DNA of 64,000 nt from assembly GCA_008802785.1 (NCBI GenBank), contig VUYT01000008.1, positions 310,001 through 374,000 on the forward strand. The letters run 5' to 3'. The DNA is from Symmetrospora coprosmae (lineage: Eukaryota; Basidiomycota; Cystobasidiomycetes; Symmetrosporaceae). Both the position numbers and the translations under genes were made by a program. Below the pieces are notes generated by a model that was not told the DNA's origin, did no database searches, and was given only the letters and a program-made list of their open reading frames with translations. Shown here piece by piece: positions 1-56,376 of the stretch (position 1 is the first letter of the stretch; every line of letters begins with the position of its first letter).

Positions 1-3000
1 CCTTCCTCGAAGGCGCGGTCGATGATTGCCGCCTCGATGCTCTTGATGCCGACGGCATCGCTGTTGATGCCGAGAACACAGGCGCTCTCACACGGGGCGG
101 CTAGGATGGCAAATATGGCAATAAGGCGGCGTTAGTATGCTGGTTGGCGGAAAGCGTACAGTTGATGAGGCTGATTGTCAACTTACGGCAACTGCGGAGG
201 GATGGCAGGTTATAGATAGGCCAGGGGGCGTCAGCGGGACAGATGGCGACTGCGTCAAACATAGCGATTCAAGGACTTACACTCGACCGGTAATCTCTGG
301 CAGGTTGTTCGTCGACATGAGCTTCTCATAGGCCTCTTGCCACTGGCCCTTGAAAACGAGGTCGTTCCACTTTGGGATGACATTGGAGATAGGACAGCCA
401 GTGTCGCTCTGGCAGAACGGTACACCGCAATCCATACAGCGACTTGCTTGGCTCTTCAGCTCGTTCTCTGTGAGCCGGCTCGACAGTTCCTTGAAGTCTT
501 TGGTCCTTTTGCTCGCGGGGCGATACTTCTCCGACAATCGGGCTTGCTTGAGGAAGCCACGAACTTTGTCTAGAGGAGCCAGAGCGCGCTTCTTCTCGGT
601 CTCTCCATCGACCATGGAGTCCTCCAGGTCGATGACGGTCGGTTCGGACTTCGCCGGCTTGGCAGCCGGAACCTCTTCGACGCCGTTTGCAGGCTTCTTC
701 GCCTTGTCCTCCTCCGGTGCGTATCCATCGGAAGAGATGTCGAAGCCGTTGAGTCCGGCTCGAGCCTCCTTGGCGGCCTTACCGGCCTGCTTCTCGAGGA
801 CCGCCTTGTAGTCGGACGGCATGACTCGGACAAGCTTGGGCAGGTAGTCGGACCAGGCATCGAGGATCTTAGCTGCATGCTCAGATCCTGTGTAGTGCTT
901 GTGGTTCTCGATGAGGCCCTTGACCGCGGCGATCTCTTCGGCCTCGGTGATCGGGCCGAGCTCGACGGACTCGGTGTTGCACTTGCTCTTGAAGTCGCCA
1001 TCCACGTCGAGGACGTAGGTGATTCCTCCACTCATGCCTGCTGCGAAGTTGCGTCCGGTGCTGCCGAGAATGACAACTCGACCTCCAGTCATGTACTCGC
1101 AACCGTGGTCTCCGACACCTTCGACAACAGCGTAGGCTCCGGAGTTTCGGACGGCGAATCGCTCGGCAGCGATACCCCGGAAGTATGCCTCTCCAGAGGT
1201 CGCACCGTACAGGCAGACGTTGCCGACGATGATGTTCTCCTCCGACTTGAAAGTGGACACCTTGGGCGGGTAGACGATGAGACGGCCTCCAGAGAGACCC
1301 TTTCCGACGTAGTCGTTGGCGTCACCCTCGAGCTCGACGGTGATACCCGGAGCCATGAATGCACCGAGCGACTGTCCAGCAGAACCCCTCATGTTGATGT
1401 GGATCGTGTCCTTGGGCAGACCCGCCTCGCCGTACTTCTTCGAGACCTTGTTGGACAGCGTGGTACCGAGCGCTCGATCGGTGTTGACGACGTCGCACTC
1501 GATCTTGACTGGCGTACCGTCGGCGATGGCCTTCTCGGACTCGTCGATGAACTTGTTGTCAAGACGGACGTAGAGACGGTGGTCCTGCTGGCGGCTCTTG
1601 AAGGTGGCAGCTCCCGGTCGCATCTTCCATGCGGGCTTGAGGATGGCGCTGAGGTCGAGGTGCTCGGTCTTTGCATTCCTGAGCGAGTCGTCGACCTTGA
1701 GGTGCTCGGCATGGCCAACCATCTCGTTGATAGTCCTGAAGCCAAGCTTGGACATGATGCCTCGAAGCTCCTCGGCGACGTAGTGGAAGAAGTTAATGAC
1801 CTGCTCGGGCTGGCCTCGGAACTTGGCTCGCAGCTCTGGGTCCTGCGTGGCGATTCCGACGGGGCAGGTGTTGAGGTGGCACTTCCTGGAGGTGCGCAAA
1901 CGCGAGAAAATGTTGTATCAGCCGAAATCCACGCTGGTAGACCGCAAAGCTAAAATATCGGACCTCATCATGATGCATCCCATCGCAATCAGGGGTGTTG
2001 TAGCGAAGCCCCACTCTTCAGCACCAAGCAGGCAGGCAATGGCGACATCCCTGCCGGTCCTGATCTGCCCGTCAGTCTGGACGGTGACTCGGCCTCGGAG
2101 ATCGTTGAGAACGAGCGTCTGATGCGTCTCTGCAAGTCCAAGCTCCCATGGGAGACCGGCGTACTTGATACCGGTCCAGCGAGAAGCACCCGTGCCTCCG
2201 TCGTGACCGGCGATGAGGATGTGGTCGGCCTTGGCCTTTGCGACACCCGATGCGACAACTCCAACTCCGACCTCGGAGACGAGCTTGACAGACACCCGCG
2301 ACCTTGGGTTCGAGCACTTGAGGTCGTAGATGAGCTGCTTCAAATCCTCGATGGAGTAGATGTCGTGGTGGGGCGCTAAAGGCAAAGCAAGCGACAGTGT
2401 CAGACGCAGCCTGTCACGCGAACTTCTGCAACTTGATACGACTTACGAGGCGAGATGAGACCGACTCCCGGGGTGGAGTGCCGGGTTTTGCCGATAGACT
2501 CGGACACCTTGTGGCCTGGTAGCTCTCCTCCCTCTCCGGGCTTTGCACCCTGAGCCATCTTGATCTGAAGCTCGTCGGCATCAGCGAGGTAGTTGGACGT
2601 AACACCGAATCGGCCAGACGCAATCTGCTTGATGGCAGACCGCATGCTGTCTCCGTTGGGCATGACGTTACTCCTCTCTGCGTCCTCTCCTCCCTCTCCG
2701 GTGTTGGACTTGCCGCCCAGTCGATTCATGGCGACGGCGAGCGCAGAGTGCGCCTCCATCGAGATGGAGCCGTACGACATGGCACCCGTGCAGAATCGCT
2801 TGACGATCTCGGTCCAGGACTCGACCTCCTCAATAGGAACGGGAGTGGCGGACTCGAAGTCGAAGTCGAGCAGGCCACGTAGGGTGACCGCGCGCACCTG
2901 AGCACGAGCGTTGGCAGCGTAGGCATCGTATGCTCGCTGGTTCTTGTTGGATGAGACGGCATCCTGCAGGTTGGCAATGCCGACCGGGTCGTTAATGTGC

Positions 3001-6000: not shown

Positions 6001-6089
6001 CCCTGAGGCGCTTTGCCCTTCCTTTCCTCTTGGTTGAATCGGCTGCTGATGTTGTGCTGCAAGTTGTCGTTCGCGGCCGCTGGGTGCAT
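1..6089 (-). CDS. GLT1: Glutamate synthase (NADH/NADPH-dependent, GLT1), C-terminus cut by window edge
   Basis: Makes two glutamates from glutamine and 2-oxoglutarate (nitrogen assimilation). Exons on the minus strand: 6089-5742, 5664-5587, 5521-5485, 5420-5338, 5273-2447, 2375-1964, 1885-281, a 5-nt exon 191-187, and 100 to beyond base 1. Order of parts: a 125-residue acidic, Ser-rich propeptide; the class-II glutaminase domain whose mature N-terminal Cys is residue 126 (DSCGVGM); the central domain; the FMN domain with the 3Fe-4S pattern C-x5-C-x4-C ([12 protein letters not shown], split by an intron); the GXGXG beta-helix; and the start of the FAD/NAD small-subunit-like domain (CMDCGVPFC, then VCPAPCESAC). 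All splice junctions restore the family sequence in frame. The start at 6089 is the first ATG of the opening exon. It shares a 1.8-kb upstream region with the gene at 7914. Confidence 0.95.
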
Positions 6090-8336: not shown

Positions 8337-10487
8337 ATGCAGCCCTTCGACCGTCAGACCAAGGTGAGCGGGTCCTATGCAGGTCCAAGCGTCAATTGCA
8401 TGGGCTGATGCGATTGTACTTCATGGCATGCAGGAGGAGATCAAGAAGGGCAAATTCAACGTCCTCTTCATCGGTCAGTGCCGTTCATGCGCCTGTGCCT
8501 GCGCCGCACCGGGCCCGCTTCGAGCCTTCGCAACCACCTGCTGACGCTCTGCTCTGCTCTAGGTGCCGGTAACAGTGAGTGAACGCGCATACGGGTGTAT
8601 TCAGGTCGCCTCTCCAGTCCAGCAAGAGTCTCGGTCCTTGCGCACATCTGCTCAAGGTCGAGTCGCTGACCCGCTTCTATCGCTTGAACAGTCAACTTCG
8701 GCAGCGATGAGGGACCATGGAACCACGTGAGCTGCCTCATTAACGCAATCTCAACGATTCTCATACTGACATGCTGTCCGCCCCGCAGTCCGCACGTCTC
8801 GAGCACAGGCTGCAGACCCGTCTCCGCGTCGTCGGCATTGTCGACCCGGCCACTTTCAGGGCAGAGGCGGTCATCGAGCACAAGAGCAACTCATTCGTCG
8901 CCATGGCCTACTCCGAGTGCAGGCTGTGCAAGAACCTCGACGAGTTCGTCAAAGGGATGGAGCCAAAGTACCTGCCGCACGCCGTCATCATCGGCAGCCC
9001 TGCCGCCTTCCACGGCTCTGACGTGTGAGTGCGGCCATCCTGGATAAGTGGGTCTGCCCGATGCTGATGGACACCACATAACAGACCCGGCGCCGACCTG
9101 GAGATCCAGATCCTCAAGCACTTCCCCAAGGCGGCGCTGTTCATCGAGAAGCCCATCAGCGCAGCCCCGGTTCAGAACACGCTCAACCTCGCAACGTACC
9201 TCGAGGAGCACCGGGTCATCGCCTCGGTCGGCTACATGCTCCGGTACCTGAAGGTCATCCAGGCCATGAAGAACATCATCGAGTCGACAGGCAAGCCCGT
9301 CATGATGACCGTCGCGCGATACGTCTGCTCGTACGCCAAGATCGGCTCCGAGGTCTGGTGGAACAAGAGCAAGAGCTGCGGACCCATCGTCGAGCAGGGC
9401 ACCCACCTCGTCGATCTCTGCCGCTACTTTGGTGGACCCGTCCTGCTCGACACTGTCCAGGCGACCAGTACCGAGGTGAGTCCACGCGACCGTTTGTCCC
9501 ATCTCGTCGGCTGGTGCCCATACACCTGTTCACTCGCAGCACTTCGAGGAGGCTGGTCACCTCGAGGCCATCCCCATCGACGAGTCGAAGATCCCGCCTG
9601 AGCACAGGAATCCGCGAACCACCTCTGCCGTCTGGTTAGTGCGCCGCATGAGCATGCCTCCAATATGGTGGACGCTGAGCTTCCATGCTCACCTTGCAGG
9701 AAGTACGAGAACGGAGGCATCGCTTCGTTTGTTCACGCTCTCACGCTCCAGGGCACCGCCTACTCGACTGGTAAGTGCTTGCCCTTGCCGCTTCAGGTTC
9801 ATTGGGGAGTGGCCAACGCTAATTTCCTCCCATGGGCGCATCTCCTTGCACAGAACTGGAAGTTTATCGTAAGCTGGCTCTCCGCGACTGCGCTTCTGAA
9901 GACGCTATGATGACTTTGCTGATCCTTCTGTTCTTGTAGTCGACGGCTGGCAGCTCAAGGTCACTGACCTCTACAACGAGCCCACGCTCTTTGTCCGATC
10001 TCCCGAGTCCGACGCGGTGCAGCGACACAACTTCACGGACGATGACCCGTACTGTGAGGCTCAAGCATACCACATACTGCGAGTGATTGCTGAAGCTGAT
10101 CTGTTGCCCCCCGCTGGATTTGCAGACGGCGAGATTTCCGCGCTCATTGACGCTGCTGAGGCCGGCAATGCCGCGGCCATCGACGCTGCGCAAGACTCGG
10201 CTATCGCAGATGACGATGACGACGACACCAAGAGCGGCATCATTCCCTACGCCCAGACTCACGAGGGCATCCTGTCGAGCTTCCGGGACGCCTGCGGCAC
10301 GTACGCTCTCACCTGGGCCATCAAGGAGGCGTCGGAGCGGGCCAAGAAGACCGCTTCGGTTGACCAGCTTGCCGAGTGGGTTTCTTCGAGCTGTGACCGT
10401 CCTGCGATTGCAGCTGATTTGACTGTCTCCGCGCGTCCGCAGGGACGTTACCTCCAAGGCTACTATCTAAGCGGAAAGCGCTCGTAG
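8337..10487 (+). CDS. NAD(P)-binding oxidoreductase, GFO/IDH/MocA-like (465 aa)
   Basis: Eleven exons: 8337-8363, 8434-8473, 8563-8574, 8692-8726, 8789-9024, 9085-9475, 9540-9634, 9700-9770, 9854-9868, 9940-10053, 10126-10487. The N-terminus is a Rossmann fold (VLFIGAGNINFGSDEGPW) followed by VVGIVDP and a family-typical FIEKPIS segment (the EKP loop of Gfo/Idh/MocA enzymes). The rest has the usual C-terminal alpha/beta domain, including EQGTHLVDLCRYFGG. Two exons are tiny (12 and 15 nt) and both are needed for frame. The last exon contains a 63-nt stretch (10380-10442) with intron-like ends and no stop, so a form 21 residues shorter is possible. Substrate is unknown. An in-frame TGA at 8325 supports the chosen start. 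Confidence 0.85.
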
Positions 10488-51423: not shown

Positions 51424-52277
<854 letters not shown>

Positions 52278-54398: not shown

Positions 54399-56376
54399 AT
54401 GCAGCAGGTCCGAGACATCAGCAACACCATCGCCGGCAAGGTGAGGGCGAACTCATGGCTTGGAGCGGATCAAGGGGTACACCGACCGGCGACTGACGCA
54501 ACACCCTCGCAATAGGCCGGCAAGGCATACATCCTCACTCCCATGCCTAACGACGTCGTCATATGTGCGTTCCATTCCTCCCTTCTCTGATTCCCCTAGC
54601 CGCCCCCCTTGTCCAGGTCGGTTGCAGTCGTGCGGTGTGAGGCAGGCGGGCGGGCCTGGCCACCGGCTGCGACGGGCAGACTGGAGGGACTGACAAGGCG
54701 GAAGGCGGAATCGAGATACTACTCAGTGAACATCTCTAACCATGTGACTCACTCCCAATCCCCGACAGGCGCCGCCGTCAGGACGCCCATCACCAAGGCC
54801 AGGAAGGGTGGCCTCAAGGATGCCTGCCCGGAGGACCTCCTCAGCCACGTTTTCAAGGCAGTCATCCAGAGGAGTGGGGTTGACCCGGCTCTTGTCGAGG
54901 ATGTCGCAGTCGGAAACGTCCTCCCTCCTGGAGGAGGTGCCGTGAGTCGAGGTTGGACGCTCTGGCCGGACGCGCACCCTGTGGCTGACGCATCTCCGCC
55001 TTATACACTTGTCGATTCCAACCGCAGACCGTTGCACGAATGGCTGCTCTCCACGCAGGCCTCCCCGTAACGACCTCCGTCAACACTGTCAACCGCCAGT
55101 GCTCGTCCGGCCTGACCACCGTCGTCCAGATTGCCAACGAGATCGCTGCGGGGCAGATTGACATTGGCATTGGCGCAGGGGTCGAGTCCATGACGCAGGG
55201 CTACGGCGCGGGCGCCATGCCAGAGCACATCAGCGAGACCGTCTCGTCCGTCCCGGAGGCCGCAGACTGCCTCGTCCCCATGGGCATCACCTCGGAGAAT
55301 GTCGCCAAGCAGTTTGGCGTCACGCGCCAGGTGCAGGATCAGTTCGCAGCGCGCTCGTTCCAGCTCGCAGAGGCGGCACAGAAGAGCGGAAAGTTCAAGG
55401 ACGAGATAACCCCCGTCACGACCAAGTGGGTCGACCCGAAGAGCGGCGACGAGAAGACCATTACTGTGACGGAGGACGATGGCATCCGAGCTGGTGAGCA
55501 CACCACGCCCGATACGACACTCCATCTGCGAGCTATTTTTTTGATGGCGCACGTTTACAGGAATGTCTGTCGAGGTTCTCTCCAAGCTCAAGCCCGCCTT
55601 CTCGAAGGATGGCTCGACCCACGCCGGTAACGCATCGCAGGTCTCGGACGGAGCAGCAGCAGTCCTCCTCGCTCGACGAAGCGTCGCAAAGAAGCTCGGC
55701 CTGCCCATCCTCGGCAAGTTCGTCACGGCTTCCGTTGTTGGTGTTCCTCGTGAGTCTCCCATTCTGGTCCGCTCACTGCCTCACACGCACGCAAACTGAA
55801 GCAAACTTGCTATCCCGCATTTCAGCCAAGATCATGGGTATCGGACCTGCCTTTGCTATCCCCAAGGCGCTCGAGAAGGCCGGCATCACCCAGGAGGAGG
55901 TCGATTTCTTTGAGATGTGGGTCTGCATTGCTGCACTAGATCGCGTCGACAATCGGCTGACCCGCGTCATTTCACAGCAACGAGGCATTCGCATCGCAGG
56001 CCGTATATTCTGTCGAGAAGCTCAAGATCCCCATGGACAAGGTCAACCCGAACGGAGGAGCTATTGCGTTCGGCCACCCGCTCGGTGCGACTGGAGCCAG
56101 GCAGATTGCGACTGCATACAGCCATTGCAAGCGGACCGGCGCCAAGGTCTTTGTCACGAGCATGTGGTGAGTCTAGGGCGGGCCTGGCTTGCAAGCGTAT
56201 AGCCGGTCAGAGGCTGACCTTCGCGGGTACTCCGCTCCCTCCTTCTCCGTAGCATTGGCTCCGGCATGGGCATGGCGTGAGTGATGACTACTGTGATACT
56301 GTCTGGCCGGGCCGCAGCATACTGACGTGCTGCATACCTTCCCTCCTCCAGCGCCGTCTTTGTCAACGAGCAGTAG
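54399..56376 (+). CDS. 3-ketoacyl-CoA thiolase (415 aa)
   Basis: Exons 54399-54440, 54516-54564, 54769-54941, 55028-55493, 55561-55749, 55826-55916, 55978-56166, 56253-56276 (24 nt) and 56352-56376. Catalytic features: the nucleophile in [41 protein letters not shown], the His in [15 protein letters not shown], and the second Cys in [10 protein letters not shown], split by an intron. The best fit is the beta-oxidation thiolase of peroxisomes (POT1/FOX3 type): it cleaves 3-ketoacyl-CoA to acetyl-CoA and a shortened acyl-CoA. The N-terminus ([14 protein letters not shown]) shows no clear PTS2, and the C-terminus (FVNEQ) is not a PTS1, so its location is open. Confidence 0.92.

Follow-up and report, generated by a model that had tools for sequence, protein, structure and literature searches.

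How are the coding parts of the fused glutamate synthase gene (GLT1) of Symmetrospora coprosmae joined across positions 280 to 101, where removal of the entire span destroys the reading frame? Positions are those of the window, i.e. the whole stretch of 64,000 nucleotides that was analysed (G000:C75:310001-374000), which belongs to a 20.05-Mb assembly of 77 contigs. A search of this genome for 5.8S rRNA gave no match, while its size, short introns and gene content point to a fungus. The earlier note had placed a five-base exon, TTGCC, at bases 191-187 of the minus strand, and both its coordinates and its letters proved to be correct. We take these bases to be a coding exon of GLT1, 5 nt long and constitutively included, whose splicing would proceed by intron definition, and we put the probability of this reading at roughly 0.9. 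The use of the exon in RNA is predicted from coding necessity, as read from the DNA sequence, and its inclusion is presumed to be constitutive.

The GLT1 gene model and its five-base exon

GLT1 is encoded on the minus strand. The gene starts at position 6089 and runs off the left edge of the window, with its stop codon at C75:308561. The domains GATase_2, Glu_syn_central, Glu_synthase, GXGXG, Fer4_20 and an FAD/NAD-binding domain were found joined in one chain, which identifies the product as fused glutamate synthase. The model comprises 13 exons and 12 introns, and its 6,645 bases encode an intact protein of 2,214 amino acids in which every codon is open. Exons 1-7 occupy positions 6089-5742, 5664-5587, 5521-5485, 5420-5338, 5273-2447, 2375-1964 and 1885-281, exon 8 is the five-base exon, and exons 9-13 extend from position 100 leftward to C75:308561. 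Exon 7 (281-1885) encodes the GXGXG domain and the first part of Fer4_20 and ends with ITGRV. Positions 1-100 hold the start of exon 9, which continues to C75:309872 to the left of the window. Small exons are frequent in GLT1, because exons of 37 nt (window 5521-5485) and 38 nt (C75:309771-309734) are present as well, both on the minus strand.

At GLT1 intron 6 (1963-1886, minus strand), the atypical donor GTCCGA is apparently used. It scores 1.9, against a range of 4.4-7.1 in the gene's eleven remaining donors, and removal of this intron leaves the reading frame open. When the own genome was searched for paralogues with the C-terminal 470 residues of GLT1, six matches were obtained. Five of them were pieces of GLT1 itself, and one GLT1 locus was found; a second GLT1 relaxing the need for the first was rejected, the sixth match being a weak one in the FAD region (43% over 42 residues).

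The TTGCC exon (187-191, minus strand) was delimited by reading the sequence and by enumeration of splice models. On one side it is bordered by intron 7 (192-280, minus strand, 89 nt), which runs GTAAGT...CGCTGAC...CCGCAG with a branch-like A at 231, and on the other by intron 8 (101-186, minus strand, 86 nt), which runs GTAAGT...TACTAAC...TCCTAG with a branch-like A at 132. The other ten GLT1 introns measure 61-100 nt, and the two flanking introns resemble them. Exon 7 ends at position 281 with ACC GGT CGA GT, the last GT opening a valine codon, and exon 9 opens at position 100 with CC GCC CCG TGT, the first two bases closing a proline codon. The five bases enter in phase 2; GT-T TGC C-CC is read as Val-Cys-Pro, and the cysteine codon TGC lies wholly inside TTGCC. 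With 5 nt between two introns, the exon is well within the limit of about 27-30 nt for micro-exons, and its splice sites are canonical, with AG preceding it and GT following it.

The earlier note had also stated that direct joining of the flanking exons breaks the frame. Skipping of the micro-exon indeed results in GRVRPV followed by a stop, i.e. a stop after three further codons, and stops likewise arise when intron 7, intron 8 or both are retained. Inclusion of the exon is needed for frame or function, as evident from this stop and from the conservation of the cysteine described below. A spliceosomal twin intron, in which nested introns would fill 280-101 and no exon base would be kept, is scarcely credible. 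Two introns do lie next to each other here, and such stwintrons have been described in fungi (PMC6616335, PMC12403724), but removal of all of 280-101 leads to a stop and the cysteine is kept by no one-intron model.

Splice models were enumerated between about positions 320 and 20, with GT or GC donors, AG acceptors and introns of at least 40 nt. One of 291 one-intron models and 26 of 5,866 two-intron models were open and in frame. The sequence ITGRVCPAPCE was produced by exactly one enumerated model, the one with the TTGCC exon. Among the in-frame two-intron models, it was also the only one in which each intron had a GTRRG donor and a YAG acceptor. The coding-necessity argument is strong because one solution among thousands restores the frame, the residues and the canonical signals together. 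The claim that inclusion gives GRVCPAPCE with a TGC cysteine codon was thus upheld: the model is unique among those enumerated, and homology and splice scores agree with it.

The sole open, in-frame one-intron model pairs the acceptor at 101 with GTCGAG at 287, a cryptic donor. It would yield an in-frame GLT1 lacking the cysteine, in which ITAAPCE replaces ITGRVCPAPCE and which is four residues shorter. The apparent use of a weak, non-consensus donor at intron 6 speaks for such a possibility. Donor 287, however, scores -4.6 versus 5.4 for the GTAAGT located seven bases downstream, and the conservation of the lost residues also bears on it.

Conservation of the cysteine motif

A phmmer search against solved proteins matched the spliced segment to the small chain of glutamate synthase (7mfm_I) with an E value of 3.1e-83, and the alignment had no gap over TGRVCPAPCE. 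Cys-Pro was present at the motif in all five of the PDB alignments shown, out of 89 matches. In four of these five, a two-residue insertion was seen shortly after Cys-Pro, on the exon 9 side. A second comparison employed the best 80 of at least 573 bacterial or archaeal matches, which had been retrieved with search peptides that excluded the GRVCPAPCE motif. Cysteine and proline were found in 80/80 of these best-matching bacterial relatives, without a gap over the nine residues, and the valine position was occupied by V in 63, T in 13 and I in 4 of the same best 80 of at least 573. The homologues compared, solved and bacterial proteins, are distant ones, and this distance and the insertion count somewhat against the proposed exon.

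The Fer4_20 profile scored 96.4 bits with the micro-exon and 73.8 bits with the sole one-intron alternative. The description of the motif as a conserved iron-sulphur motif in the earlier note is supported by the cysteine in every one of the best 80 of at least 573 relatives and by the Fer4_20 score. We take the equivalent of this cysteine in dihydropyrimidine dehydrogenase to be a ligand of one of two N-terminal 4Fe-4S clusters. The 287-donor model loses the cysteine and the proline that 80/80 relatives (best 80 of at least 573) retain, and it costs 22.6 bits in Fer4_20. Together with the poor donor score, this makes the model very improbable, and the TTGCC exon is preferred.

Splice signals and the proposed route of splicing

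To assess chance occurrence of the arrangement, the 180-nt span was dinucleotide-shuffled 20,000 times and searched with patterns that were picked after the site had been seen. The pattern YAG-[NTGYC]-GTRVGY occurred in none of the shuffles, the minimal form AG-[NTGYC]-GT in 55, and YAG and GTRVGY separated by an arbitrary five bases in 67. In 542,000 strand-bases of the contig, the full pattern was present twice and the minimal form 39 times, in both cases including the GLT1 site. The explanation that gene decay or an erroneous base lies behind the apparent need for an exon can hardly be entertained. A single assembly underlies the analysis, which leaves some room for an error. Against error or decay, all 2,214 codons of the GLT1 model are open, and TTGCC, with a good splice site at either end, restores the frame together with conserved residues, a coincidence seen in 0/20,000 shuffles.

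Reference introns were obtained by a self-trained ab initio scan of 271 kb of the contig, and the best-scoring 125 of 154 candidates were used. The scan was limited to lengths of 45-130 nt, with minimum scores of 2.0 for donors and 1.0 for acceptors and a further minimum for the branch site. The spread of the 125-intron set is partly set by these limits, because lengths were bounded and score floors imposed; the median length was 80 nt, within the 45-130 limits. The 154 candidates included only five of GLT1's 12 introns, probably chiefly because 75-base flanks were required. Relative to the 125 introns, intron 7 ranked at percentile 43 for its donor and 72 for its acceptor, and intron 8 at 35 and 14, respectively, the last value belonging to the lower part of the distribution. 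The column consensus donor of the set was GTGAGT. Between positions 330 and 101, only three donors scored above 0, namely those at 280 and 186 (both above 5) and one at 159 (3.1). Exactly one CTRAY branch-like site was seen in each intron, CGCTGAC in intron 7 and TACTAAC in intron 8. The splice signals of introns 7 and 8 are ordinary for this genome.

The acceptor ccgcag and the donor gtaagt bordering the exon had been described as perfect in the earlier note. The letters are right, but with percentiles of 72 for the acceptor and 35 for the donor the sites are good rather than perfect. The TACTAAC motif reported for the following intron is present, and intron 7 has a branch-like site too. Repeated, introner-like introns were considered and rejected, as a search of the genome at E 0.001 returned no match to intron 7 or intron 8 other than the intron itself. 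Donors of U12-type introns are RTATCCTT-like; both donors here are GTAAGT, and this type was rejected as well.

Inclusion of the exon could also be alternative, skipping leading to a premature stop, to less or no mRNA and hence to an on/off switch for glutamate synthase. The stop after three more codons would suit such a switch, and a microexon switch is described for Trichoderma Xlr2 (PMC11121469). The same source gives microexons as usually multiples of three, which the 5-nt exon is not, and the sequence around the GLT1 micro-exon carries no sign of regulation, both introns having ordinary signals. We consider this possibility unlikely. A scan widened to 400 nt gave 155 joins, 59 of which were at least 180 nt long and look like false joins; this set was left unused, being too noisy to speak against a skipping intron of 180 nt.

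For the constitutive exon, we propose the following route. Each flanking intron (89 and 86 nt), a normal short intron of the major type, would be recognised as a whole. U1 would sit on its donor and the factors for the branch site and the 3' site on its other end, with Prp40 as a possible bridge between them. The five bases themselves would need no exon recognition, because each flanking intron is short and normal and can be paired end to end. Introns 7 and 8 would be excised successively, whichever came first, and once one had gone the five bases would belong to a normal exon when the other was spliced out. Intron 8, which has the exact TACTAAC, may leave first, although this is a guess. In the predicted product, the frame would be kept and the cysteine of the Fer4_20 (4Fe-4S) region in the small-subunit-like domain restored. 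The whole route, that is intron definition, the part assigned to Prp40 and the order of removal, is inferred.

Bridging of the intron by Prp40 was put forward as speculation in PMC8378409, which also reports that micro-exons lose Prp40 dependence when their flanking introns are made smaller, short flanking introns being a situation with less need of Prp40. A similar point on Prp40 and small exons is made in PMC8624252. The present genome encodes a frame with two FF domains above the Pfam cut-off. By eye this frame looks Prp40-like, including WW-like stretches, which is expected in any such genome and is no test of the mechanism.

Micro-exons elsewhere in the genome and in other organisms

Both strands of the 271 kb were surveyed for models in which two introns enclose an exon of 1-24 nt. 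The GLT1 exon ranked top in an initial survey (7 models) and in all four settings of a later one, which returned 8, 14, 32 and 8 loci, with no more than 12 listed for each setting. Micro-exons were accepted only under a gap-free alignment to a solved protein. Four further micro-exons were backed by homology in this way: exons of 15 and 20 nt in ATG8, one of 24 nt in a thiolase-like gene and one of 14 nt in an ALDH7-like gene.

ATG8 (52277-51424, minus strand) has six exons, and both of its micro-exons lie within the conserved EKRQAEAERIRQ segment. The 15-nt exon (AGAAGCGACAGGCAG; 52105-52119, minus strand) came from reading the sequence and not from the survey, and the 20-nt exon that follows it (AGGCCGAGCGAATCCGCCAG; 52007-52026, minus strand) was returned by the survey with its splice sites right. 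The spliced ATG8 aligned gap-free with solved Atg8 proteins. The 24-nt exon of the peroxisomal 3-ketoacyl-CoA thiolase-like gene (56253-56276, plus strand) was returned in one of four settings. With its neighbours it encodes CIGSGMGMA, containing the CIGSGMG motif near the C-terminus, and the alignment had a gap upstream of the exon and none across it. The 14-nt exon (YAVGL) of the ALDH7-like aldehyde dehydrogenase gene lies to the left of the window (C75:165371-165358, minus strand). For the thiolase-like and ALDH7-like exons the survey misplaced the downstream acceptor, and the acceptor supported by homology was used instead. The frame is lost on skipping of the ATG8 20-nt or the ALDH7-like exon and kept on skipping of the ATG8 15-nt or the thiolase-like exon, the latter event deleting the CIGSGMG motif.

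With four further homology-backed micro-exons in the same genome, tiny exons seem to be handled routinely here, most likely through intron definition. Five micro-exons from four genes in 271 kb extrapolate to roughly 370 per 20.05 Mb, i.e. a few hundred genome-wide, which is a crude figure from one contig. A far-reaching extension, in which a large micro-exon repertoire in housekeeping genes is combined with regulated inclusion of the GLT1 exon and a shut-down by skipping under nitrogen or iron control, appears doubtful at best. The statement that spliceosomes rarely handle exons this short goes too far for a genome with four further micro-exons of 14-24 nt, and also because Fusarium (PMC12940212) and plants (PMC8831610) are described as having exons of 1 nt.

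Tiny fungal exons, down to 1 nt, are already known as a kind (PMC12940212). According to that source, CYP621A P450 genes of Fusarium contain a 1-nt exon found in some 20 orthologues with SRA read support. The GLT1 exon resembles it in being situated in a fungal nuclear gene, with a frame break inside a conserved motif and conserved flanking splice sites; it differs in having 5 nt, in a glutamate synthase gene of one genome, and in being deduced from sequence alone. In P450 genes of Phanerochaete chrysosporium, the shortest exon is given as 6 bp and micro-exons as occurring in nearly a third of the genes (PMC1184071), and an 8-nt case is discussed in PMC12940212. Many tiny exons per fungal genome, some within conserved motifs, are common to both species, whereas the Phanerochaete description concerns P450 genes only and here an exon of 5 nt occurs in glutamate synthase and further tiny exons in unrelated conserved genes.

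Plants are described as having 1-nt exons in APC11 and VPS55 and, in rice, a 5-nt exon beside one of 12 nt (PMC8831610). The length class and the coding necessity are shared with the exon studied here, and an adjacent pair is present in ATG8; unlike the GLT1 exon, the plant exons are backed by RNA-seq and RT-PCR and conserved across species. The microexons that depend on Prp40 in C. elegans and in mouse cells (PMC8378409) pose the same tiny-exon problem, with intron definition as the proposed solution, but they are alternative and often flanked by longer introns, whereas both GLT1 introns are short. A literature search joining glutamate synthase and microexon retrieved no paper.

Because the kind is already known, the value of the GLT1 exon is that of a model case and an annotation warning. 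It constitutes a compact natural test of a spliceosome facing an exon too small to be recognised as one, with just five bases separating two short, unremarkable introns within a conserved region of a housekeeping enzyme. If TTGCC were left out of a gene model, the frame or the conserved cysteine of GLT1 would be lost, and the ATG8, thiolase-like and ALDH7-like genes carry the same annotation hazard. An aligner with a microexon setting is mentioned in PMC3990503.

Several other survey loci were rejected. At C75:98243-98032 (6 nt), the coding sequence runs on as an exon of about 84 nt, and at C75:128298 (14 nt), the reading frame continues through; both were judged by eye and left unscored. The genes concerned are presumably TFC1-like and DnaJ-like, respectively. 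The loci at C75:309319 (3 nt) and 309871 (10 nt) fall inside GLT1 exons 10-11. Further candidate loci were returned at 321600, 79057, 24834 and 156177, among others. In an oxidoreductase-like gene, which we take to be Gfo/Idh-like and for which searching the Protein Data Bank to an E value of 1 gave no match, a candidate 15-nt exon was observed at window positions 9854-9868 on the plus strand.
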